Positions 4,604 through 30,703 of a stretch of DNA of 64,000 bases are shown in pieces. Both the position numbers and the translations under genes were made by a program. Source of the stretch: an uncultured Latescibacterota bacterium (GTDB lineage Bacteria > Latescibacterota > UBA2968 > UBA8231). The stretch spans positions 3,350,548 to 3,414,547 of the forward strand of contig OY282352.1 of assembly GCA_958295495.1 (NCBI GenBank). Direction: 5' to 3'. Each line of letters starts with the position of its first letter. Position 1 is the first letter of the stretch. The notes beneath the pieces were generated by a model that saw only the letters and a program-made list of their open reading frames with translations, was not told where the DNA came from and searched no databases.

Positions 4604-5836
4604 ATGTTGGCAATAGACGGGGGACCCAAGGTCCGCGAGACGCCATTTCCCAAGCGGCATCTTTTTGGGGCTGAGGAGTGCCAAGCCGCGCTTGGGCTGT
4701 TCTCTGCGGCGATGGAGAGCGGCGATGCAATCGGCTACAGTGGGCCAGAGGAATTGGCCTATGAGCGGGAGTTTGCCGCGTTCATGGGGGGCGGGTACGC
4801 CGATCTGGTCAACTCGGGTACCGCGGCGCTCTACGCGGCATTGGGAGCATTAAAGCTAGAAGCGGCTGGCGAAGTCGTGATCCCGCCGATTACGGATCCG
4901 GGTGGGGCAATGCCCGCGCCGCTGTTGTGCCAGGTGCCGGTGGTCGCCGATGCTGCGCCGGGGTCGTTCAACGCTGGTGCCGAGCAGATCGAGGCGGTGC
5001 TGACGCCCCACACCCGCGCCATTGTCGTGGCCCATATTGCCGGCGAACCCGCGGATATGACGCCGATTCTGGCGCTAGCCGAGGAGTGCGGCATCCCGGT
5101 CATTGAGGATTGCGCTCAGGCCCACGGGGCGCGCCACAAGGGGCAGCTAGCAGGATCGCTGGGCACGGTGGCGGCCTTTTCGACCATGAGCGGCAAGCAC
5201 CACGCGACCGGTCCGCAGGGCGGGGTGGTCTTTACCCGCGACGAAGAACTCTGCTGGGAGGCCAAGCGCTTTGCCGACCGGGGCAAGCCCTTTAATACGG
5301 ATGCGGCCTCCAACCTGCGCGCCGGGCTCAATCTCAACGGCAACGACCTGTCGGCCGCCATTGGGCGGGTGCAGCTAAAAAAGCTCGATGCGATGGTCGC
5401 TAGGCGACGTCAGGTAGCGGCGCAGATCGCCGAGGCCATTGCCGAGTGCCAAGCGGTGCGGTTGGGATGGCAAGTGGCCGAGTCGGAGGGGGTGTACTGG
5501 TTTATGCGCTTCCACGTAGATGCTGACAAGCTCCGGGTAGAAAAAGACGGCTTTGCCCGGGCTGTGGCCGCCGAGGGCATTCCGGTGACGGCCACGTACC
5601 GCTATATCCCCTCCGAGGCGATCTGGTTTAGGGAGCGGCAGGTCTTTCCCGGCAGCGACTATCCGTGGGGGTTGCCGGCATACAGAGGAGACCGCAATGC
5701 ACAGTTCGCCTGTCCCAACGCTGTCGCTGCGGTTGAAAGCCATTTCATCATGTCGATTCACGAGAATTTTGCCGAACAGGAGGTGGCGGATATTGCCGAG
5801 GCGTTTGCGAAGGTGGAGCAGGCGTATTGGCGGTAA
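4604..5836 (+). CDS. DegT/DnrJ/EryC1/StrS-family PLP-dependent aminotransferase
   Basis: 410 residues from the ATG at 4604, chosen because an AGGAGG precedes it at the right distance; an in-frame ATG ten codons earlier lacks one. The fold-type I PLP signature is complete. 'NSGTAALYAALGAL' binds phosphate, 'VIEDCAQAHGA' carries the pyridine-N aspartate, and the Schiff-base lysine is K198 in SGKHHATGPQGG. Family members aminate keto-sugars or act in aminocyclitol formation. The last 120 bp are repeated, with changes, at 10847-10966 on the other side of the island. The product is intact and ends AKVEQAYWR. Confidence 0.88.
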   Translation: MLAIDGGPKVRETPFPKRHLFGAEECQAALGLFSAAMESGDAIGYSGPEELAYEREFAAFMGGGYADLVNSGTAALYAALGALKLEAAGEVVIPPITDPGGAMPAPLLCQVPVVADAAPGSFNAGAEQIEAVLTPHTRAIVVAHIAGEPADMTPILALAEECGIPVIEDCAQAHGARHKGQLAGSLGTVAAFSTMSGKHHATGPQGGVVFTRDEELCWEAKRFADRGKPFNTDAASNLRAGLNLNGNDLSAAIGRVQLKKLDAMVARRRQVAAQIAEAIAECQAVRLGWQVAESEGVYWFMRFHVDADKLRVEKDGFARAVAAEGIPVTATYRYIPSEAIWFRERQVFPGSDYPWGLPAYRGDRNAQFACPNAVAAVESHFIMSIHENFAEQEVADIAEAFAKVEQAYWR

Positions 5837-5855
5837 CTCATCCGCAAAAATGAAA

Positions 5856-5874
5856 GGGGCTTGTTGTGCTGAAT
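5856..5874 (+). other. Gene-start-like motif shared with the PhyH leader at 37802
   Basis: GGGGCTTGTTGTGCTGAAT matches GGGGCTTATCGTGCTGAAT at 37802-37820 in 17 of 19 positions. At 37812 the GTG CTG AAT is the start of a phytanoyl-CoA dioxygenase gene. Here the same frame runs only MLNRWNFLR before a stop. A weaker relative follows the second aminotransferase tail at about 10981. This suggests that a PhyH-like gene once followed the aminotransferase and was lost when the island came in. The match is seen directly; the history is inference. Confidence 0.4.
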
Positions 5875-5923
5875 CGTTGGAACTTCCTCAGATGAGGGTT
5901 TCTACGAGGGAGTCAAGGTTAGG

Positions 5924-6694
5924 TTACGCCGACTTTCTAAGCTTGCTATGTAGCATGGTTGCTCGCCTTTCGAGTACGCCCGGGCGGTGAAGGTCATAGA
6001 GGTCGAGAATGTCCGACCCCAGCTCATCCTGGATCCATAAGAGGTCGCGGAATTCGTCGGCTCTTAAGACTCGCGGTTTGAACCGGATGTCGCGTGTAAT
6101 GGGGTCGTAGGCCCAACGATTCTGCATGGGCATCAAGGCAAGTTTCCCCATACGAACCGCCTCCTGAAGCAACGTTTCGCCTAGATACAGATCGGCGCTC
6201 GGCCGGCACGCAATCCTGACTACTACCGGCAATGGCAATCGGACCGGATCACAAAGGATTAGTCCGAGTTGGATGCAAAATGCCCGCAACGCGTCGGACA
6301 CCGGTGAAGACGAAACTATAAGCCTCCACCATCGCTCACGTCCAACGGCATAGGGTCGCTCGCAATAGAAGTCCAGTGTCTTTTGATGGAACAGGGTGAC
6401 GTCCGCTTTGGTGACACCACAGCTTTGTGATTTGCATTCTAGGATGATGGAGCCGCTCCAGCCGGCCGCGCCCCCATCTATCTCATGTCCTATGCCGGAG
6501 GCTGGGCGGAAGCCGAACAAAGAGGTCATTCCCGGACCTTGGCGAAAACTGAGTCCGGGACGCCGGAGAAGATCACCAACGGCGCGTTCCCAGATCCTCC
6601 CGTCAACTAAGGTCCCAGACGGGTCTTGCCCTACTCGGGCAAGCAGCCAAGCATCAAGGGTGAGTTCGGCCAGAACATTAGGGACGCATGGCAC
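5924..6694 (-). CDS. PD-(D/E)XK-fold nuclease-like protein (third gene of island operon)
   Basis: 256 residues from a GTG at 6692-6694, which has AGGAGG about 6 bases upstream overlapping the ATPase stop. The nuclease signature is seen as E36 in 'DGRIWERAVGDLL', D73 in 'GHEIDGG' and E86-x-K88 in 'SIILECKSQ'. This is the E...D...ExK layout of restriction-endonuclease-like enzymes, which would cut DNA with Mg2+. A conserved-looking 'DVTLFHQKTLDFY' follows. No specificity domain or methyltransferase is nearby. It is the last gene of a three-gene operon with the ATPase and the 7981-9174 gene. Function in defence is inference; the fold call rests on motif order only. Confidence 0.65.
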   Translation of the reverse strand: MPCVPNVLAELTLDAWLLARVGQDPSGTLVDGRIWERAVGDLLRRPGLSFRQGPGMTSLFGFRPASGIGHEIDGGAAGWSGSIILECKSQSCGVTKADVTLFHQKTLDFYCERPYAVGRERWWRLIVSSSPVSDALRAFCIQLGLILCDPVRLPLPVVVRIACRPSADLYLGETLLQEAVRMGKLALMPMQNRWAYDPITRDIRFKPRVLRADEFRDLLWIQDELGSDILDLYDLHRPGVLERRATMLHSKLRKSA

Positions 6695-6704
6695 GAACTA
6701 CCTC

Positions 6705-7979
6705 CTACCGCGTTCCAAGGAGCAGATCGTCGATATCTTCTGATTCATCGCTCCCATCAGTTGCGGGTTCCAGTTCGTCGCCAGCATCGAACCCTCCTTT
6801 GAGGAACCGTTGGGCCTGTTCGCCAGTTATACGCGGATCACCACGCTCAGCTGCGAAGTTGAGCAATTCGTGCGCACGGTTCAGCAAGATACCTACGCGA
6901 CCCCCGGATACTCCCCTCAGAACGCTGATGGCATCCGGTTCGAAAGGCATAAGGTCATCATTGATCCCAGGATTACGGTGTTTTTCTAAGTACACACGAA
7001 GCAGATCGCGTACTTGGCTGTCATCCCTGAGTCCACGCAGCACGACAACGGAGGCGGTGTTGCTAGGGGAAATCTCGAAGGATGGTAGTCGGTTTTCTTC
7101 CCAGTAGCGTTCAAGCACCTGAGCTGCCCGGTTATGAAAGGTGAAGATGAAATGCACTCTATTCACATAAGGGGCACCTTCAAGCATGTCTCTAATGCGC
7201 CCGATTTCGCGGGACCGCTTTGCCGACGTGATACTGCGCGTCGTGGCTAGATCCTCGAGTTGATCAATCATCAGATAGAGGTGGTCGATACCGGCCGCAG
7301 CTAGAGCACCAAGGGCGAAGTCGAGGTAGTACAGGCCGTTTCGCAGGCGTGCCGTGATCGATACTTCACTCAGCACCTCCAGAACCTGCCTTGCATCGCC
7401 GGAGGCAAAGGCTTTTACCAATTCAGGCCGAAGTGGAGCACCTGTTCCGCAGATGCGGAGCCACGTGTCGCGAAGGTGACTAGTGATTTTGGAGGGATCA
7501 TCCGTGCCCAAGTCTTCGACAATGCGTGCCTTCGCTTGATCGAATACGGCGTCAATACCCTCCTCCGATGGTCGTGCCAGAGCGATTACGGCGTTAAACA
7601 GAACGGGGTAAAGACCCGAGGCATTGAGGTTGTTCAGATTTGAGTAAGCAGCAGCGACCGGCTTCTGTTTCTCCTGCCGTACTCCAGCCTCTGTGAGAGT
7701 TTCGACGCCCAAGTTTCTATTGATCTCTTTGGTGATCTCCTGCATCAGGGTCGTCTTACCGAATCCGGTGTCGGCTTGAGCTCCTTGGGACCATAAGAAA
7801 CCAATATTGACATTCCCGAGTACTGAACCCCGGATGAGCTTGCGGCGAAACTCACGAGATTCCTCGTCGAAGACATCAGGGCTGTAGGGTTGATCCTGAG
7901 TGTGGATAGCTTCGGCCGGAAAAGGATTGCCATCCAGACTCCATGCTTCCTCCATGTGGTCAATCGAATCGACGGTCAT
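6705..7979 (-). CDS. P-loop ATPase (second gene of island operon)
   Basis: 424 residues. Walker A is ADTGFGKTT at about 69-77, and Walker B is 'LYLMIDQLED' with D239 and E242. A region with arginines (RSREIGRIRDML, 'FTFHNRAAQVL') follows and may hold sensors. The C-terminal third ('GGRVGILLNRAHELL') looks like a lid or winged-helix region, and the last 30 residues are acidic and probably disordered. This architecture resembles ORC/Cdc6-like or STAND-type AAA ATPases that act as switches. The ATG follows the upstream stop by one base, with AAGGAGGT inside the upstream gene, so coupling is strong. No named family was recognised. Confidence 0.7.
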   Translation of the reverse strand: MTVDSIDHMEEAWSLDGNPFPAEAIHTQDQPYSPDVFDEESREFRRKLIRGSVLGNVNIGFLWSQGAQADTGFGKTTLMQEITKEINRNLGVETLTEAGVRQEKQKPVAAAYSNLNNLNASGLYPVLFNAVIALARPSEEGIDAVFDQAKARIVEDLGTDDPSKITSHLRDTWLRICGTGAPLRPELVKAFASGDARQVLEVLSEVSITARLRNGLYYLDFALGALAAAGIDHLYLMIDQLEDLATTRSITSAKRSREIGRIRDMLEGAPYVNRVHFIFTFHNRAAQVLERYWEENRLPSFEISPSNTASVVVLRGLRDDSQVRDLLRVYLEKHRNPGINDDLMPFEPDAISVLRGVSGGRVGILLNRAHELLNFAAERGDPRITGEQAQRFLKGGFDAGDELEPATDGSDESEDIDDLLLGTR

Positions 7980-7980
7980 A

Positions 7981-9174
7981 TCAACCTCCTTCAGGTCTAG
8001 GGTGCAGAGTCATTTCGTATCGGCGGTTGCCGCCTCGCCGGTAGACCGGTTCAGAGGCGGGCTGCCTTGTATTGCCGAGGTGAAGCCAAAGTTGGATGCC
8101 AAGGTTCGGCATCTCCCCAGCGGTTATACACTCGATCACCAAGTCGACAAGCGTGCGTGTCACCTTGCAGCGGAATGCCGCGTCGGCGCGCACACGATAA
8201 ATGGGAAGATAGGGTGCGCTGAGACTACTACAGGCCTCGTGCGCCTGAGCTCGGTAGGCGTCGACAATTGCAGCCGACACTTTCTGGTCGTATCTGTTGA
8301 GGGTGCGGCGTTGAATCGAGAGATCACCATCCCCGCATAGGTCAGCGGCAAGCCAGATGACGTTCTGACCCTCGAATCCAGGCACATATCGAGATTGATC
8401 GAACAGCTTTAGCTGCGATCCCCAACTCTTTAGCATCTTTAGATCGGTCGCACCGATGGAAAGTCCCCGGAGTCTCATTGCCGCTTCGGCGAAAGCGTCG
8501 TTGATAGCCTCGGCCATCTCTTTGCTCGTAGGCTGCTTCTCACGGGCCCGCCCAAATCGGCGCCGGACGAATGAAATAATTATCTTGCGAATATCAGCCT
8601 TCTGACTCGTCAACGATTCGTCCTGCGTCAATCGTTCGGTAGCGTAGTTAATCCAGTGTTCAGTGCCTTTATCTAAACGACGCGACTCCTCGATGTCTCC
8701 TTCGGTGGTTTCGGGGCAAGCGAGTGGTCCCTCGTCCAAAACGCAAATGAATCGCTGGAAATAGGGATGGGCGCGATAAACTGCATAGGCGAGTTCATCG
8801 CAAAATGCCGCCATGTCATTCTCTGCTTGGTTTGCGGCCTGTACGCCAAGATCGGTGAGCTTATAGTCGCGGTCGCGATGTGCATCGAGGTACTTCCGAG
8901 CTGAAGGAAGCTGCTGACGCTCAACGAACCCAAGGCGTATCGCCTCGTCAAGCACCTCGCGTGTCGGTGCCCAATATCTGTCTCTATCTCCTACTCGGCT
9001 TGCGGCTCGTCGCCCGAGTCCTTGGTCGGCCAACCTGTCGACGGTGGTGCTGTATCGCAGACGCGCCTCCTCGAAGGTAGTGCCTTTGCGTAGGCCGATA
9101 AGCTGATCGCGCATGTGAGGGACCAACTGCTTCAGCCGCGGAACGGTATCGCGGGGTTCGGGTGCTTTGTTCAT
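7981..9174 (-). CDS. Unknown protein with a winged-helix-like N-terminal region (first gene of island operon)
   Basis: 397 residues from the ATG at 9172-9174; a TTG two codons earlier is possible. No known family was recognised. Residues of about 75-110 (TREVLDEAIRLGFVERQ, then 'YKLTDLGVQAA') have the helix plus 'Y.LT..G' wing pattern of wHTH domains. The middle is helical ('IIISFVRRRFGRAREKQ'), and a C-terminal domain carries several paired acidic and aromatic residues. It could be the DNA-recognition or regulatory subunit of the ATPase/nuclease module. No Shine-Dalgarno is seen and the sequence before the ATG is AT-rich, so the message may be leaderless. A 26-bp palindrome lies about 20 bp upstream. 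Confidence 0.6.
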   Translation of the reverse strand: MNKAPEPRDTVPRLKQLVPHMRDQLIGLRKGTTFEEARLRYSTTVDRLADQGLGRRAASRVGDRDRYWAPTREVLDEAIRLGFVERQQLPSARKYLDAHRDRDYKLTDLGVQAANQAENDMAAFCDELAYAVYRAHPYFQRFICVLDEGPLACPETTEGDIEESRRLDKGTEHWINYATERLTQDESLTSQKADIRKIIISFVRRRFGRAREKQPTSKEMAEAINDAFAEAAMRLRGLSIGATDLKMLKSWGSQLKLFDQSRYVPGFEGQNVIWLAADLCGDGDLSIQRRTLNRYDQKVSAAIVDAYRAQAHEACSSLSAPYLPIYRVRADAAFRCKVTRTLVDLVIECITAGEMPNLGIQLWLHLGNTRQPASEPVYRRGGNRRYEMTLHPRPEGG

Positions 9175-9194
9175 GATCAATAATATATCAATAG

Positions 9195-9220
9195 TTCAGG
9201 TCTCTTGCAAGAGACCTGAA
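9195..9220. promoter_or_regulatory. 26-bp perfect palindrome, candidate operator of the island operon
   Basis: Two 13-base arms, TTCAGGTCTCTTG and its exact reverse complement, meet without a spacer at 9207/9208. The palindrome sits between the operon at 9174 (minus strand) and the plus-strand coiled-coil gene at 9379, flanked by AT-rich DNA that could hold the promoter. There is no U-run on either side, so a terminator is unlikely. A dimeric repressor site is the simplest reading, possibly for the winged-helix-like first gene product. The symmetry is seen directly; the role is inference. Confidence 0.6.
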
Positions 9221-9378
9221 TAAATTTTATATCTTTTTCTTTTGAGATTTATATACTTGACTTGAGTGCCCATGAGTAATGATTATTCGTCTTGGCAGGA
9301 GCTAGGCATGGCACTGTTTGCGTTCTCGTCTCAGGTCTTTACGTTCTTTCCTTTACCATTACACAGAGAGAAGAGGCC

Positions 9379-9765
9379 ATGCAACAGTATGATCGAGTAG
9401 AAGAGGCTCGTAAAAATAAGGAACAAGCCGAAAAGGCAATGGATACCTTGATATGCCAATTATCTGAGTACGCCAAGAATCTGAGAGCCATAGCCGATAT
9501 GCTTGAAGTTCCTTTGCGAATCTCAAATACGGAAACCCGAATGGAAATTAAAATTTTCCCACATCAAAAAGATGGCAAAGACGCCATTGTACAGACCAAA
9601 GGTGGCGTAATATCGGACCCTAACCCTGCCGAATATCCATCTTATGAGGATCTATCGGCTTTCTTGAAGAGATATAGGGCCGCCCAAGACAGTCTGGAGA
9701 AAGCCTATAAGGATTTTGACACTGAGGTCAGGTCGCATCCATTTAATGGTGCTAGTGTTTTATAA
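9379..9765 (+). CDS. Coiled-coil protein of unknown function, last residues replaced by an IS element
   Basis: About 128 residues from the ATG at 9379, preceded by AGAGAAGAGG. The product is a charged helical protein (EEARKNKEQAEKAMDTL, 'YEDLSAFLKRYRAAQDSL') with a short beta-like centre. The IS element begins at 9746, so the final six residues (NGASVL) and the stop come from IS sequence. Joining the flanks without the IS would extend the frame to a different tail of about a dozen residues. It is more AT-rich than the surroundings and points away from the nuclease operon. It may be an immunity or partner gene of the island, or a passenger. Confidence 0.55.
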   Translation: MQQYDRVEEARKNKEQAEKAMDTLICQLSEYAKNLRAIADMLEVPLRISNTETRMEIKIFPHQKDGKDAIVQTKGGVISDPNPAEYPSYEDLSAFLKRYRAAQDSLEKAYKDFDTEVRSHPFNGASVL

Positions 9766-10520
9766 TCCGAACTCAGCGATAGACAACGGGACGAATCCGT
9801 TTTCATCGGGTTGCACTCCGTGCCACTGCGCCAGCAGATTGAACGCCGCCATGGCAAAGCTGAGATGAGCCGCAAAATAGGGCCATGCCCGATGGGTCTG
9901 CTGCTTAAATCGACCCATTCGGGTTAGCATGGAAAAGACCGTCTCGATGACCATCCGCTCGCCCCACGTTCTACGGGGACACCCTTTCAGATTCGCCGGA
10001 TTGCCGGCTTTGGCATGAAAGCCTAGGTCGCTGAGGAGGATCATCCGCTGTTGGAAGCGTCGGATTAGCGGATGAAAGACCGAGTCGTGGACATTCGCCG
10101 TGTTCCAATCCCAATCAACGATCCCGCCCCACTGATTGACGATCATGCACAGCTTGCCCCCGACGATCCAACGGTGATTGGACAGCCCCTTCTTGCCGAT
10201 AGGTTGCCGCGCCCGGCCGTGGCGCACCGGATGGATCAACTCAATGCCATAGCTATCCACCACCCCTACCGTCGTCGTCGCAGCGCGGAAGCGATTCGTC
10301 CAATCGGCATGAGCGGCGAATAAGCGAAACAAGCGTGTGCGCGAGGGCCGGCGTGGGAACAAGGTACGCCAGTCCCGTACCAGCCAGCGATAAAACGCCC
10401 GTTTACTGCCCTCTTTGAGCGCATACAACACCCCGTGGTCATCGGGACGCTCCTTCGCTGAAAGGTCGGACATCCTCAGCGTAGGAACTACCTAGACCAC
10501 GGTTAACATACTAGCACCAT
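9746..10520 (-). mobile_element. Insertion sequence, 775 bp, with 11-bp terminal inverted repeats and TA flanks
   Basis: The left end ATGGTGCTAGT (9746-9756) is repeated inverted at the right end (10510-10520), and TA flanks both sides (9744-9745 and 10521-10522) as a likely target duplication. If the TA is counted the arms are 13 bp long. One transposase gene fills nearly all the element. The insertion sits between two convergent genes, trimming the end of the plus-strand one and abutting the stop of the minus-strand remnant. The element looks complete, which suggests a fairly recent insertion. Confidence 0.75.
9760..10473 (-). CDS. IS transposase, DDE type (IS982/IS5-like)
   Basis: 237 residues preceded by a GAGGATG start region. 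Candidate catalytic residues are D73 (VVDSYGIEL), D149 (ILLSDLGFHAKAGNP) and E177 (MVIETVFSML). The spacing and the 'IETVFSML' helix resemble IS982-type transposases, whose usual length is about 290 residues. The N-terminal domain seems short here, with an in-frame stop seven codons upstream of the ATG. The element is also shorter than typical IS982 members. Family assignment is therefore open, but the DDE transposase call is firm. Confidence 0.85.
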   Translation of the reverse strand: MSDLSAKERPDDHGVLYALKEGSKRAFYRWLVRDWRTLFPRRPSRTRLFRLFAAHADWTNRFRAATTTVGVVDSYGIELIHPVRHGRARQPIGKKGLSNHRWIVGGKLCMIVNQWGGIVDWDWNTANVHDSVFHPLIRRFQQRMILLSDLGFHAKAGNPANLKGCPRRTWGERMVIETVFSMLTRMGRFKQQTHRAWPYFAAHLSFAMAAFNLLAQWHGVQPDENGFVPLSIAEFGL

Positions 10521-10693
10521 TAGTTATAGACGCGCTCTTCAACTTCCTTCAGGGCTTCCTTAGCTCGTTCCACTGTTTCGGCTAAAATCTCTTCACAGTC
10601 AAATATATCGGCCCACTTCCTTAGCTCTTTGGCCACTTGTCTATTATCGTATCTTGCCCAAGCTGCTTCGGCTATGGTGTCTGCGTCAGGGTT
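10520..10693 (-). pseudogene. 3' fragment of an unknown helical protein gene next to the IS
   Basis: An open stretch of 57 codons ends in TAA at 10520-10522. It reads as a well-formed helical C-terminus (DTIAEAAWARYDNRQVAKEL, then 'KWADIFDCEEILAET' and 'AKEALKEVEERVYN'). It has no start codon, and an in-frame stop lies directly upstream, so the 5' part is lost. The stop would be kept even if the IS were removed, so the C-terminus is original. This is likely debris from a gene that once sat convergent to the coiled-coil gene. Confidence 0.55.
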
Positions 10694-10846
10694 TTATCGA
10701 CTCCAAGAGTGGCAATTATTCGCCTTTATTAATATCATTCATTTTTCAATAATCTCCTAAGCTGAGCAAAGACAATATCTTGTGAGGATTTAGGCATTCG
10801 GGTATATAATTCCCTTTTAATTTACCGGGCCAAGATGCTAAGAAAA
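10694..10846. other. AT-rich stretch without a gene at the island's right edge
   Basis: About 150 bp, clearly more AT-rich than the chromosome either side. No gene, repeat or terminator is visible. It ends in an A-run directly against the second aminotransferase tail, which makes this the most likely right junction of the island. Confidence 0.4.
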
Positions 10847-10966
10847 AACGCCGTCGCCGCGGTTGAAAGCCACTTTATCATGTCGATTCACGAGAATTTT
10901 GCCGTACGGGAGGTGGCGGATATTGCCGAGGCGTTTGCAAAGGTGGAGCAGGCGTATTTGCGGTAG
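10847..10966 (+). pseudogene. C-terminal remnant of a second DegT/DnrJ-type aminotransferase gene
   Basis: These 120 bp align without gaps to 5717-5836, the end of the intact aminotransferase gene, with 9 differences. Most are synonymous. The encoded tails differ at only three positions (FAEQ versus FAVR, and AYWR versus AYLR), and the stop is TAG instead of TAA. The pattern says that this was once a working paralogue under protein-level selection, not a fresh copy made by insertion. Everything 5' of it has been replaced by island DNA. Confidence 0.85.
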
Positions 10967-24315: not shown

Positions 24316-26079
24316 TCAATAGACTATTGGGACAAGTTTTGTCTTACTCTCGGATCCTGAATCTGCATCAATTTCCACTCGCACCAAATAGATTCCGGGC
24401 AGCACTTTGGCACCGCTCCCGTCTGTTCCATCCCAAGCCCTTTGGTATCTCTTACTGGGATCTAACCCTGAATAGATCGCCTTTACACGCCTTCCAGAAA
24501 GATCGTATATATCCACCGAAACTAAAGCACCCCCTGTCAGATTGACGATGTCGTAGGTCACCAAGACTTCATCATTGAGGCCATCGCCGTTGGGAGTAAA
24601 AGGGACGGGAGTCACTTTCATGGAATGAATGAGGTCTTTGCCCACCGAGATCTCGACCGAAAGGTCATCCCCCTGCGCCTCAAAATCAGAGGCTGCATCT
24701 CCCTCGGTGACTACTTGGGGCAGATTGTCCGGTTTTTGGCTATCGGAGACTTTGCCGGCAAAAAAAGTGTTGTACTGCAAAGCCACGTTCTCAAAGACCA
24801 CTCGCAAGGTGCGGTTCCCCACAATCCGGGGGAAGCTAATTTGGACCCCGTCTTCTGTATCCATCTTTTCCCATTCGACATCGGTCCCGTCTATTTGCAC
24901 GGAGCTCACTACGGCTACCGGTGCCATAGTCTTTAGTTCGAGACGGTTAAATCCTCGGCTGTTGACGGTTCTCACGGCATAGGTAAAGGGGGTATTCTGC
25001 CCGATCAGAGCGTTTTGGGGCCATATCTCGCCCACCACCGAGTCAGCTAGGGCAGGAGACACCTCAAAGGCGATGGAATCAACTGTCGCCGCCGCTAGGA
25101 TATCGCTGGTCTTGAGGAGTAAACGGAACTGAAAAAAGCGACGCGGGCCTGGTGATTCAATCGCCGTGTGGACGCCGGCAGGATAGGGGGAGGACCAAGC
25201 ACTCCAAGACAGCGAGTCGCTGGGGTCCGGTGTGTTGCCGCTCCGAGTCGATAGGATAGCATCTGTTTTCGTTGGTTCGCCGATGCTACTCCTAGCCCAT
25301 GTTATGTCGCCAAAGATAGCGGGCTGTTCTCGATCAAATACTCTTGAGGTATATGATGCCGTAGAGGCGAAACCTGCACCAAAGACTTGAAATTCGTCAA
25401 TCTCCCATTCCCCGCGTACCAGTTGTTTCACCTCTATGAAACGAACAAACTGTAGGGGGACGTCTAGGTCAACGGTCGGCTTGAGGTTGCGTTCCTCGGC
25501 CTTAAAAACCTTGAAATCCGGCGTCCCGGCTAGGGTTTTCTGCTCCTCGCTGCCGTCGTTCAGCAGCAGTTCATAGCCTTTTAGAAAAAACTCTTCAAAT
25601 CCCTTGCGCGGGAAAAATTTGATCCGATTGACCCCGAAGCGCTCGCCCAAATCTATCCTGAAGATAACGCCTGTCGGGGAACCGCCCTTTACTTCAAAGG
25701 CCTTGGTCGTATCGCCGCTGACCATGTGTGCCAATTGTTCACTCAAAAGGCTCTGGGATATTTCGAGCACTATTCTCGCGTTGGGCGATGTTACGGCCCC
25801 TCCTCTTTCAAATATTTTTAGGACGATGTTGTCTTCGGGGCCTGTTTGAGCCGGCTGAATTTGGCCGGGATTGGCGTCAAAATCGATAACCGATATCTCG
25901 GAATAATGGCCATCCCACGCTAGGGAACCTGAACCGCCTCCAATGACGATCGTCTCCCCATAGCCTTGGGTCGGTACAAGTCCCTGCAATAGACAAGACA
26001 ACGCTAATAGCGCGGTCCTGACTAACGGTGGTTTGTTAAACCTGTTCCTCGCGGATCGTAGAAGATCAATAGGAGACAT
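24316..26079 (-). CDS. Secreted discoidin-like protein with FlgD-like C-terminal tail (paralogue 3)
   Basis: 587 residues. A signal peptide lies near residues 15-42 ('ALLALSCLLQGLVPTQGYGE'). One F5/8-type-C-like domain is indicated by 'VIFRIDLGERFGVNRIKFF', a middle Ig-like region contains 'FTYAVRTVNSRGFNRL', and the C-terminal domain shows 'PFTPNGDGLNDEVLVTY', 'IYDLSGRRVK' and 'WDGTDGSGAKVLPGIYLV'. This FlgD/gliding-type tail is used for surface sorting in FCB bacteria. The gene overlaps the end of the preceding paralogue by 14 bp, so the three paralogues form one operon. Confidence 0.82.
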   Translation of the reverse strand: MSPIDLLRSARNRFNKPPLVRTALLALSCLLQGLVPTQGYGETIVIGGGSGSLAWDGHYSEISVIDFDANPGQIQPAQTGPEDNIVLKIFERGGAVTSPNARIVLEISQSLLSEQLAHMVSGDTTKAFEVKGGSPTGVIFRIDLGERFGVNRIKFFPRKGFEEFFLKGYELLLNDGSEEQKTLAGTPDFKVFKAEERNLKPTVDLDVPLQFVRFIEVKQLVRGEWEIDEFQVFGAGFASTASYTSRVFDREQPAIFGDITWARSSIGEPTKTDAILSTRSGNTPDPSDSLSWSAWSSPYPAGVHTAIESPGPRRFFQFRLLLKTSDILAAATVDSIAFEVSPALADSVVGEIWPQNALIGQNTPFTYAVRTVNSRGFNRLELKTMAPVAVVSSVQIDGTDVEWEKMDTEDGVQISFPRIVGNRTLRVVFENVALQYNTFFAGKVSDSQKPDNLPQVVTEGDAASDFEAQGDDLSVEISVGKDLIHSMKVTPVPFTPNGDGLNDEVLVTYDIVNLTGGALVSVDIYDLSGRRVKAIYSGLDPSKRYQRAWDGTDGSGAKVLPGIYLVRVEIDADSGSESKTKLVPIVY

Positions 26080-28741
26080 GTACTAAGAGGTAGTCCGAGG
26101 TATTTCTACTCGATTTTGAATCGACCTTAATGTCGATCCTCAGCACATATATGCCAGGGGCCACCAAAGCCCCGGATTTATCGACTCCGGTCCAGACCAC
26201 GGAATGCCGTCCCGTGGTTATGTGCTCATCGCGCAGTTGGTGAACGAGACGCCCACCTAGATCGTATATTTTCACTTGTAACGGCGTTGATGCCTTCACC
26301 CGCATGAGTGAAAAACTCACAGTTATATCATCGTTGATGCCGTCGCCGTTGGGGGTGAAGATTTTATTTTTAATTTCGATATCCCCCAGTACAGCACCTC
26401 TGTTAAGGGCCAGAATCACGGTTTTTTCGCTATCCGTGGTCTCGTTCGCATCGCCCGGATCCACTCTTTGCCACGAATTGGGAATGGCCGAATGGCCGAT
26501 AGAGCCATTGAAGAATGTGGTAAAATCGAACGTGGTCGCCGCAAACTGAAGCTCGATCAACGCGGCCCCGCCGGTCGTCTTTATGGGAGTGGGCAGACGC
26601 ACCCAAAGCGAATCGGAATCACCGACTACGACCTCAAAACCCTCGCTTTGGGCGGTATAAGTTTGAGTCGGCTGCCCTGTGAGGCTCAGATGGGCTTGCT
26701 TGAATTTCATCTCGACGCCGGAGGGAGCTGCAATGAGAATCTCGTCAAATCCCTCGTTAGCCGCCTCGAAGGTCGTGCGGATGAAATAGGAAAACGATTG
26801 CTCAGCGCCAATCGCTTCGAGTTGGGCGGGCAGGACCTCGCCAACAATCGTTTTGGCGACTGGCGTTACAAAATTGAGTTTCACCCAACGCAGTGTAGCC
26901 GCCACGAGAGGATTTTCCGTGAGAAAGGTCGCTCGGATGGCGACGAATTTACGCGGACTAGGCGAGGTGATTTTGTCTCCCGAATTGAAATAGCGTTGAC
27001 TCCAACTGCTCCAATCGCTGCCCGGGTTGGTCTGGGTAACGACGGGTCCAACAGAGGCATCCCCAAAGAATTTTTTATCTGTAGCGTGCGCTTCCGCTGC
27101 TTCTTCTTCGGTGCCCGGAAACAACTCACCGTTCTTTTTATAGTAGAGCGTAGTCGTTTTGACCGTATTGCCGGTTCGGGTCTGAAGAATAATATCCGTA
27201 CCCGGCGGTACATCCGCATCCCATTCTATAGACGCCAAATTTTGGGGAGTGGCCCCCAATTCTATGAACGCCGAAGGCCCGTCAAAGACCGATTCGATCC
27301 GGGCCTCGGGCATGTACCCCTCACCAAAAAACTGAATCTCTGACAAGCCGTGGCGTCCGGCCCTTACATGGAGCTTATAGGTGAAAGAAAAATGCTCGAC
27401 TTTGGTGAGTGGGAACTTAAAATCGTGGTACGACTCGTTCCCATTGATATTGTCGAGCGATCCCACGGTTTTCCAGGCCAGACTCCCACCGGCATTGGTG
27501 GAGCCATCTGATACTTCAATGCGGTAGGCACGGAAAGGCCCGGGGGGTCTACTGCTGGCATGGAGTACGCGGATATTGTCCAAGAAGAAGGCCCCTCCCA
27601 GATCCACCACTAAGGCGCGCTCGACATCGGGCGGCTCCGAAGGCAGCATCCTGTCGGGATTGTACCCTCCTTGAGCGGGCCAGTACAACGCCTTTTCTAC
27701 ACTATATATTACTCCATCTACCACCACACCCTCAGCTCCGTTGTTTTCCCAACTCGTCACCTTGCCACCCCGCTCCAGTACGCCAATGCCGATATTGTCG
27801 CCGATGGACCAGACTTCCACTTCCGCCAATCGAGGCAACTCGCGGCGGTGGTAAACGACAGGGCCTTGACTGTCCTCGCCGGCCAAAGCCTCCCAATCCT
27901 CGCGTCCCTCTAACAATCGCAGCCGGCCCGAGGTTTCTCGGCGGAAGTATTCTATGTCGCCCTGCTGGTCGGGGTCGAGACCTTCATAAACGGACTGGGA
28001 AACTTGTCTTGCCTTGCCAAAATCGCTGTCCGTGACGCCGACCGAGACGAATCTGATCACATCGCCGGTAAAATCCCCGCGCACCTGTGTCCATTTGGTG
28101 GGCAACTGGCTGGTCAAATCGACTTCAAAGACCCGTTCATTCTTGATGGGCTTGTTCGTTGAGAAGCGTTTCCTGTACACCAGCGGGCCGATGATCGTCT
28201 CCCCCTGAGAGGTGAGAACCTTGAATTGGAGAAAGGGGTCTCCCAAATCCTCCCCGACAAACTTGAGGACGATCTTATTGGCCGATACGGCCCGCCCTAA
28301 ATCGATTTGCACCCACCAATCCCTAATAGGGGCGGAAGTGTCCGGCTCCCAGTAGGTGTCCATCCTGCCGTCCATGAGGTTTTCTGCGCTCAAGCGATTG
28401 GAGCCAGCATCCCATATCCCGCCGCCGAACTCGGAGGCATTCAGAACCGCGTTAATGCCGGGGACTACCTGTTCAGCACCCTCTATTTCGAGCTTGGTGC
28501 TCTTGCGTATAAAGGCCGGTTTCACGCCTTCCTCAGTGATCTGGATGGTCTCTGCCACCGACTGCCAGCGAGCCCAGTGATCGTTGGACTCGATGATAGC
28601 TGCGCCGTCTTGGATAGAAAAGCCCTCTTGCCCCCAAGCCACTTCGCCTAGGATCATCCTACCTAAGAGACAGGCCAAGCTAGTGCTAACCAGCTTGAGT
28701 GTTCTCTGCCATGCCATTGGATCTCCCACGTATTTACTCAC
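26066..28741 (-). CDS. Secreted discoidin-like protein with FlgD-like C-terminal tail (paralogue 2, largest)
   Basis: 891 residues. It has a signal peptide (about 10-38), then two F5/8-type-C-like domains. The first has 'ENLMDGRMDTYWEPDTSAP' and 'WWVQIDLGRAVSANKIVL'; the second has 'RALVVDLGGAFFLDNIRVL'. A region 'FSYFIRTTFEAANEGFDEIL' is shared with the other two, and the tail has 'FTPNGDGINDDITVSF', 'IYDLGGRLVHQL' and 'WTGVDKSGALVAPGIYVL'. Discoidin domains bind carbohydrates or lipids, so a glycan-binding surface protein is likely. The extra domain makes it 250-300 residues longer than its paralogues. It sits 18 bp downstream of paralogue 1. Confidence 0.85.
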   Translation of the reverse strand: MSKYVGDPMAWQRTLKLVSTSLACLLGRMILGEVAWGQEGFSIQDGAAIIESNDHWARWQSVAETIQITEEGVKPAFIRKSTKLEIEGAEQVVPGINAVLNASEFGGGIWDAGSNRLSAENLMDGRMDTYWEPDTSAPIRDWWVQIDLGRAVSANKIVLKFVGEDLGDPFLQFKVLTSQGETIIGPLVYRKRFSTNKPIKNERVFEVDLTSQLPTKWTQVRGDFTGDVIRFVSVGVTDSDFGKARQVSQSVYEGLDPDQQGDIEYFRRETSGRLRLLEGREDWEALAGEDSQGPVVYHRRELPRLAEVEVWSIGDNIGIGVLERGGKVTSWENNGAEGVVVDGVIYSVEKALYWPAQGGYNPDRMLPSEPPDVERALVVDLGGAFFLDNIRVLHASSRPPGPFRAYRIEVSDGSTNAGGSLAWKTVGSLDNINGNESYHDFKFPLTKVEHFSFTYKLHVRAGRHGLSEIQFFGEGYMPEARIESVFDGPSAFIELGATPQNLASIEWDADVPPGTDIILQTRTGNTVKTTTLYYKKNGELFPGTEEEAAEAHATDKKFFGDASVGPVVTQTNPGSDWSSWSQRYFNSGDKITSPSPRKFVAIRATFLTENPLVAATLRWVKLNFVTPVAKTIVGEVLPAQLEAIGAEQSFSYFIRTTFEAANEGFDEILIAAPSGVEMKFKQAHLSLTGQPTQTYTAQSEGFEVVVGDSDSLWVRLPTPIKTTGGAALIELQFAATTFDFTTFFNGSIGHSAIPNSWQRVDPGDANETTDSEKTVILALNRGAVLGDIEIKNKIFTPNGDGINDDITVSFSLMRVKASTPLQVKIYDLGGRLVHQLRDEHITTGRHSVVWTGVDKSGALVAPGIYVLRIDIKVDSKSSRNTSDYLLVHVSY

Positions 28742-28759
28742 CTAGGGGGCGACTAACAA

Positions 28760-30703
28760 TCAATAGGCCACGGCGATAACACCGCTCTTGATACCCTCTT
28801 CCGATTGGATATCTACCGCTATTCGATACACGTATAGTCCCGGGGGGACCAGCCGGTTGGAGCGGTCTGTCCCATCCCAAGGGTGGGAATACTCTCCGAT
28901 GGAAATGTCCCCGGCGTATATTTGCTTAACTAGCCGGCCGGACAAGGCGAAAATTTCCACGGAGACTGGAACCTGAGATGTCACCCGCAAGAGCTTATAG
29001 GAAATATGCGCCACGTCATTGATGGCATCGCCGTTGGGCGTAAAGGGATTGGGCTCAATTTGCGGTGCAGAGACCAGTGAACTAATCAGCGGTGCTTTCA
29101 CCGAAATTCCGTCGCTCTCAATCTCGTCGGCAGCGTTGCCCGGGTTGATGCGCTGGCGTACCTCGTTTGGCTCGGCTCTGTTGAACACCTTACCAGTAAA
29201 CAGCGTACCTACTTCCCGCAGTACCGGTGCGTTGAACACCACCTCGATCAGAGCCCCGCTGTCGGCCGGTTCCAGCTTGCGCGGAAAGTCGATCTCAAAG
29301 CCCAAGCCATCCGCCGTTTTCGTCCAGAAAAAATTGTCGTAATTGATCGCGTCTATGCGCAGCGAATCGACCGAAACCACCCCCGAGGGCGTGGAAATTT
29401 CCACGCCGTCAAAACCCCTGTCGCTGGCCCGGATGGTTGGTCGAATAAAATAGGTGAAGTGCGTCACCTCCCCTACTTGGGTCTCCACTGGGAAAATTTC
29501 CCCTACCAAGCCGCGCACAGCCGGCGGCACGGAGGCCTTGAACTCGACATAATCGATCTTGCCTCCATCCTCGACAGTAGAAGAAAAGTCCACTTTGAGT
29601 TGTAAAAATTGGCGAGGACTAGGAGAAACGATGCTGGTCCCCGAGCTTTCAAACAGATAGGGACTGGACCAGAAACTCCAGTTTTCCGTATCGGGGCTCA
29701 CTCTATCCCGGGGTTCTACCGGCTTGAGAACGTCGAGCAGCTTGCTGTACCGGCGCTTGTATTCGCTCAGGGTCAAATCGCCACCGCCATCGCGAAATTG
29801 CACGCTGTCTCGCTGCTCGGGTCGCAGTTGCCAAAAAACATCGGGATGTGGGTCTGTTCCCGTCCGAGTGCGGATCTCGACCCGGGCGTCGGGATCCTGT
29901 CGGCCCGACCAGCGGATCTCGCCCCAACTGGCCAGATCGTCCAATGCGATTATTTCGGATTCATAGGAGGCTTGGCCCAAGAAACCACCTCCGTAGAGTT
30001 CAAAAGCGGCAAGCCCTATCTCCTTGGGTGTTTCGCGAAAAATCAGCAATTGGACCGTTTGGGTCGATATGGGAGGATCTAGAATCACGCTGACTTCGGG
30101 TTCGGTGTTTTCCTTTACTTCTGCTATGGGGGGGAAATAGGGAACGTTTTGAGCGATGTTGACTAGTCTATTGTCGAAGGCACCAATGGATAGCCGCTCC
30201 AAAAAGTGCTCTGGTTTTTCCGCCAGAGGGCGAAATCTCACCTCTCGGATGAGAAATCGACCGCCTAAATCAAAAGTCACTTGTTCAGTGCCAATATGGC
30301 TCACCTGGAAACTCTCCGGAGCTATAGCTGGCCAGGTAAGGGCCGTAGTCGGATCTGCATCGATCATCGCCTGTCCGATCAGTTTATTTTGATTGGCAAA
30401 CAGCTTTACTCGCACCCAGCCGTCTCGGCTCAAGAGGGTTGCGGCGATGTCCTCGTCCTCATCAAAGTAGTTGGGTTGTAGTGAACCCGCCTGCAAAGAG
30501 TCCAACTCGAGGGCATCCTGCAGTTGGGAGGCTGTCCAGTCAATTTCCCTGAAATCGATGCCGAGGCTTTCAAGGCTGTCCTTTTCTGCTGTTGAAAAGG
30601 GCATGCCAATCCTATAGATAATCACGCTAGAGGCATTGGGGGGCCAGAAGCCGATACCCAGCAAAGCGAGTAGGAGCAAGCCTATTGACTTAGGTGGGAC
30701 CAT
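28760..30703 (-). CDS. Secreted discoidin-like protein with FlgD-like C-terminal tail (paralogue 1)
   Basis: 647 residues with a short signal peptide (about 1-25, 'GLLLLALLGIGFWPPNAS'). A discoidin-like segment has 'VTFDLGGRFLIREVRFRP'. The shared middle region shows 'FTYFIRPTIRASDRGFDGV', and the tail has 'EPNPFTPNGDAINDVAH', 'IFALSGRLVKQIY' and 'WDGTDRSNRLVPPGLYVY'. It opens the three-paralogue operon, 24 bp beyond the strong terminator of the CBM9-like gene. The order paralogue 1-2-3, barrel, parvulin on one strand with short gaps suggests a surface complex made together. Confidence 0.82.
   Translation of the reverse strand: MVPPKSIGLLLLALLGIGFWPPNASSVIIYRIGMPFSTAEKDSLESLGIDFREIDWTASQLQDALELDSLQAGSLQPNYFDEDEDIAATLLSRDGWVRVKLFANQNKLIGQAMIDADPTTALTWPAIAPESFQVSHIGTEQVTFDLGGRFLIREVRFRPLAEKPEHFLERLSIGAFDNRLVNIAQNVPYFPPIAEVKENTEPEVSVILDPPISTQTVQLLIFRETPKEIGLAAFELYGGGFLGQASYESEIIALDDLASWGEIRWSGRQDPDARVEIRTRTGTDPHPDVFWQLRPEQRDSVQFRDGGGDLTLSEYKRRYSKLLDVLKPVEPRDRVSPDTENWSFWSSPYLFESSGTSIVSPSPRQFLQLKVDFSSTVEDGGKIDYVEFKASVPPAVRGLVGEIFPVETQVGEVTHFTYFIRPTIRASDRGFDGVEISTPSGVVSVDSLRIDAINYDNFFWTKTADGLGFEIDFPRKLEPADSGALIEVVFNAPVLREVGTLFTGKVFNRAEPNEVRQRINPGNAADEIESDGISVKAPLISSLVSAPQIEPNPFTPNGDAINDVAHISYKLLRVTSQVPVSVEIFALSGRLVKQIYAGDISIGEYSHPWDGTDRSNRLVPPGLYVYRIAVDIQSEEGIKSGVIAVAY

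Follow-up and report, generated by a model that had tools for sequence, protein, structure and literature searches.

Layout of the operon and its insert

The window analysed here, a 64,000-nt stretch of a contig from an uncultured Latescibacterota bacterium, carries a run of three genes on its minus strand. Gene 1 extends from 9180 (TTG) or 9174 (ATG) to 7981 and encodes 399 aa, or 397 aa from ATG 9174; gene 2 extends from ATG 7979 to 6705 (424 aa, a predicted AAA+ ATPase), and gene 3 from GTG 6694 to 5924 (256 aa, a predicted PD-(D/E)XK-type nuclease). Gaps of 1 base between genes 1 and 2 and of 10 bases between genes 2 and 3 indicate a tight operon. A preliminary description of this DNA had reported the same one-strand layout and gaps, and both coordinates and spacing proved correct when re-checked; the Shine-Dalgarno sites it had noted were likewise recovered. 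The ribosome-binding site of gene 2, GAAGGAGGT, is strong and lies within gene 1, and that of gene 3, TAGGAGGT, is also strong and overlaps the gene 2 stop codon.

The trio is located on an insert of 5,011 bp (5836–10846), which also carries a small divergent gene and a gene of IS982 type. This insert is bounded by 119-nt direct repeats on the plus strand, the left copy (5717..5835) being the 3′ terminus of a gene for a DegT aminotransferase and the right copy (10847..10965) being 93% identical to it. The G+C content is 53% within the insert and 61–64% on both sides. This terminus of the DegT gene is a hotspot for insertions: besides the trio, it is found empty in two genomes of the same genus (G050 and G044), in which the DegT gene continues directly into the sequence of window position 10847 onward, occupied by a FolE2 gene in G043, G047 and G049 (identified with Pfam in G043 and by sequence similarity in the others), or occupied in G048 by a ParE/HTH toxin-antitoxin pair, accompanied by a partial repeat of the DegT end. 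The small divergent gene (9379..9765, plus strand) encodes about 128 aa if read from an inner ATG and matches no family; its open reading frame opens at 9292 and has a low G+C content of 44% (9292–9765). The IS982-type transposase gene (9760..10473, minus strand) was identified by a match below the family cut-off.

Upstream of the operon, 20 nt before ATG 9174, lies a perfect palindrome of 26 bp (9195..9220), TTCAGGTCTCTTGCAAGAGACCTGAA. Its 22-bp core occurs as a single copy in the 5.97-Mb genome, even when 3 mismatches are allowed, and no comparable palindrome was found upstream of the other copies. The palindrome is probably an operator private to the cassette, and it points to repression of the operon by a dimeric HTH protein, which may be the product of gene 1 itself.

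Predicted products of the three genes

The preliminary description had pointed to E36, D73 and an ExK motif (86–88) in gene 3 and to Walker A and B motifs in gene 2, and all of these are present: E86-x-K88 in the former, and GFGKT (K75) and a strand ending in D239-Q-L-E242 in the latter. These motifs are not due to chance, since relatives from three phyla, 23–33% identical overall, keep the residues unchanged. The proposed D73/K75 pair of mutants holds for D73, which is a nuclease residue, but K75 is the ATPase lysine and belongs to the other gene.

In the gene 3 product, E36, H70, D73, E86, K88, K96 and D98 do not vary among three relatives that are 26–33% identical to the window copy, and the catalytic residues E36, D73 and E86-x-K88 appear in the order expected for PD-(D/E)XK. 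A comparison with YraN/UPF0102 in hhalign aligned the GHExD...ExK core with an E-value of 5.5e-4 but a Prob of 30. Motifs and profiles support the prediction of a PD-(D/E)XK-type nuclease. A degenerate DNA pattern of the gene 3 active site, searched against 257 Gb of genomes, gave no relatives among the matches listed, which were mainly DUF4143-type ATPase-nucleases and YraN.

For gene 2, GFGK[ST] and D239-Q-x-E242 (DQxE) are invariant in four relatives, none of which has the first glycine that is usual in a Walker A motif (xxxxGFGK[ST]). Residues 297–400 align to the sensor/lid of RarA (RarA residues 140–232) with an hhalign Prob of 95.6 and an E-value of 1.3e-8, and because this lid matches RarA, the gene 2 product is assigned to the AAA+ ATPases. 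That assignment is supported by the presence of a P-loop, a Walker B acid and a C-terminal helical lid. Gene 2 has no Orc/Cdc6 match in Pfam; a closer placement in Orc/Cdc6 or STAND is suggested by motif and may serve as a lead. Weak matches to residues 320–420 in eight Pseudomonadota were considered as relatives and rejected, as at least seven are RarA; they support the AAA+ lid only.

The gene 1 product, which we compared with four relatives, has no Pfam match above cut-off and is probably a winged-helix DNA-binding protein, with a wHTH-like region at approximately residues 36–120 and a mostly helical remainder. Structure prediction, a check that the preliminary description had proposed, yielded AlphaFold models of genes 1 and 2 from two-row alignments, but their confidence is low (overall pLDDT of 49 and 45, respectively). 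In the best part of the gene 1 model, helices at 36–52 and 66–83 are followed by strands at 86–88 and 106–108, with a local pLDDT of 42–82; this helix-helix-strand-strand pattern of residues 36–108 and the stretch "..LGFVE...YKLTDLG.." fit a winged helix, in a model that is weak. A link between gene 1 and the FokI/SspB-type wHTH was tried and not found (hhalign Prob of 0.2 against the FokI DNA-binding region, a weak test that used a single, approximate FokI sequence).

Pfam-A, NCBIfam (June 2026), PADLOC (2023) and PHROGs returned nothing significant for the window trio, consistent with the earlier statement that it could not be matched to a named system. Against PADLOC v2.0.0 no family was found for the window proteins at E <= 1, and their relatives gave nothing better than E 0.04. 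Profile searches of the PDB with the trio proteins returned no relative, and our literature searches found no paper that describes the exact trio.

Relatives and their surroundings

Each protein was used separately in tblastn searches of 72,556 plasmid records, and the same single record was recovered each time, namely plasmid p1 of Azospirillum brasilense MTCC4039. On this megaplasmid all three genes lie side by side, with the order changed to ATPase, winged-helix protein, nuclease. Directly after them (L002:11381–15248) are a UvrD-type helicase of 925 aa and a protein of 319 aa that matches no family; the latter may be a PD-(D/E)XK protein, as judged by eye from its sequence, and the two are possibly a second defence pair.

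A gene 3 profile search of 347 Actinomycetota genomes recovered a complete trio in G996, in the window order and with overlapping genes, as well as, in G1269, a truncated remnant of ATPase and nuclease with 50–57% identity to the window proteins. A gene 2 profile search recovered a fourth complete winged-helix-ATPase pair on the viral-classed contig IMGVR_UViG_2716884858_000002 (L164), which, judging by genes such as a tyrosine integrase and MobC, looks like an actinobacterial integrative element; no nuclease gene was found within the 17 kb examined. Next after the G996 trio comes a gene of 220 aa whose start resembles a zinc ribbon (L151:10517–11179), and after the L164 pair a gene that is 48% identical to it (L164:9328–10011). 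In both actinobacterial loci the trio or pair is therefore succeeded by a protein of 220–227 aa that begins with a zinc-ribbon-like part and has no family match; it is possibly an alternative effector or recognition part.

The preliminary description had called for a search for the trio in other genomes, and co-occurrence was borne out by the complete copies in Azospirillum p1 and G996, the pair on the integrative element and the remnant in G1269. No copy was found in a phage collection, in 63 other genomes of the window's phylum, or in approximately 1,000 genome searches across Pseudomonadota and Alphaproteobacteria (draws partly overlapping, one protein each); an initial scan of genomes from an alignment of two rows also found nothing. 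The trio is rare and sporadic as far as these sequence searches indicate, and the five loci, which include one remnant, constitute a small sample.

In G996 the trio opens an island in which it is followed by PDC-M33A and C, a C5 DNA methylase that most resembles Druantia DruM, the restriction endonuclease REase-ARP and PsyrT. The PsyrT helicase match is strong (E 1.1e-239), and that of the PADLOC candidate PDC-M33C is weak (E 0.003). The earlier remark that no methyltransferase, helicase or integrase is linked to the operon is true for the window, but among the relatives each of these adjoins the genes.

A candidate anti-invader module and its alternatives

The best reading of these observations, which we consider somewhat better than evenly probable on sequence grounds, is that the trio is a compact, horizontally acquired anti-invader module of restriction type. 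The winged-helix protein would bind DNA and supply recognition, the AAA+ ATPase would assemble or switch with it using ATP, and the PD-(D/E)XK nuclease, recruited or activated by the ATPase, would cut the invading DNA; we infer joint action of the proteins as a complex, foreign DNA as the target, and this order of steps. The sequences show the trio to be mobile, given its sporadic occurrence, the insertion hotspot with an empty site and the copy on an integrative element. It is probably an unnamed virus-defence system, because it has moved between distant bacteria and was once found among known anti-virus genes. Counting against this reading, a clear defence island is present in only one of the five loci (G996), and the folds are assigned from motifs and profiles, both AlphaFold models being poor.

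Another observation that counts against the module is that the copy on the integrative element has no nuclease, which indicates that the nuclease is not always needed. The lack of this gene in one copy is an argument that the winged-helix protein and the ATPase form the core and that the effector may change. A broader proposal, to which we give slightly less than an even chance, is that the loci belong to a very rare, so far undescribed defence family of three phyla in which a wHTH and AAA+ ATPase core is combined with an exchangeable effector, be it the PD-(D/E)XK nuclease, the zinc-ribbon/wHTH-like protein in its place, or both.

One may postulate an alternative scenario of abortive infection or a toxin-antitoxin-like system, in which the nuclease attacks host DNA once the ATPase and wHTH protein sense infection, and gene 1 acts as antitoxin or repressor. 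P-loop switches are common in such systems, a private palindrome is situated at the promoter, and a ParE/HTH toxin-antitoxin pair occupies the same insertion site in G048. The operon nevertheless contains no conserved small antitoxin-like protein, and the wHTH protein and ATPase are kept without the nuclease in L164; we regard this scenario as unlikely. More doubtful still is a module that serves regulation or DNA maintenance in integrative elements, by partition, replication or exclusion, and has no anti-phage role. Integrase and mobilisation genes do adjoin one copy, and RarA-like AAA+ lids are a feature of replication and repair ATPases, but no integrase or replication genes adjoin the copies in the window, Azospirillum and G996, and one copy is in a defence island.

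We found little to recommend a remnant, possibly domesticated, of a Tn7-kind transposition or targeting module, in which the genes would correspond to a TnsA-like nuclease, a TnsC-like AAA+ protein and a TniQ-like HTH protein. The sizes and domain types are loosely compatible, the insert in the window is recent, and in relatives the genes lie on mobile DNA. No TnsB-type transposase was found in any of the loci, however, and the proteins have no matches to the Pfam TnsA, TniB and TniQ models; the Tn7-like module was rejected on these two counts, and the insert ends in a 119-nt host-gene repeat, not in short transposon ends. Least probable of all is a non-functional passenger that has been decaying since insertion, as might be suggested by the truncated remnant of the related actinobacterial copy (G1269) and the IS982-type gene adjoining the trio in the window, given that all three window reading frames are intact, all conserved catalytic residues are retained, and the ribosome-binding sites of genes 2 and 3 are clear.

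Comparison with known systems

The preliminary description had put the trio forward as an undescribed defence system, and its unmatched proteins, recurrence and presence in one defence island are in keeping with that, but the general plan has already been published. An Orc/Cdc6-type AAA+ ATPase combined with a fast-evolving wHTH protein and an REase is a recurrent anti-invader plan (PMC10853773, PMC12839542), exemplified by the "capture" and related systems, in which an Orc/Cdc6 AAA+ ATPase, a DndG/SspB-like wHTH protein and an REase form operons (Nucleic Acids Res. 2024, PMC10853773). The trio shares with these operons an AAA+ ATPase, a probable wHTH protein (400–450 aa in the published sets), a separate predicted REase and a location in mobile or defence DNA. 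Those sets usually include HerA/FtsK, an inactive REase or an ASCH-fused REase as well, and none of these was seen in the trio. No profile link to the Orc/Cdc6-DndG/SspB class was found with PADLOC models or the weak one-sequence FokI test. The plan is thus known, and the protein families of the trio appear from our searches to be unnamed and new to the libraries searched.

Other systems resemble the trio in part. The phosphorothioate-linked restriction systems SspBC and DndFGH also pair a wHTH protein with an AAA+ or P-loop ATPase and add nuclease activity, but the trio loci examined have no recognised sulfur-modification genes, and the window trio gave no PADLOC match at E <= 1. McrBC-type (Type IV) restriction likewise combines an AAA+ motor with a separate PD-(D/E)XK nuclease; in contrast, the trio has no McrB/AAA_5 or McrC match and possesses a third, separate gene for a probable wHTH protein and a RarA-like lid. 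PDC-M33, PsyrTA and the Druantia type II methylase are neighbours of the G996 trio and as such support a defence role, but they are gene families separate from the trio and are not beside it in the other loci.

If the anti-invader reading is true, the trio is a further restriction-type system, small and self-contained, that is invisible to current annotation with Pfam, NCBIfam 2026 and PADLOC 2023. The window copy encodes no modification enzyme, so how self DNA is spared becomes a question, and the modular effector, clean empty site and three-gene size would make cloning and testing easy. Elsewhere in the window (24316–30703), three large proteins with FlgD-Ig/CHU_C C-terminal domains are encoded in a run, one of which also has an F5/8-type domain.
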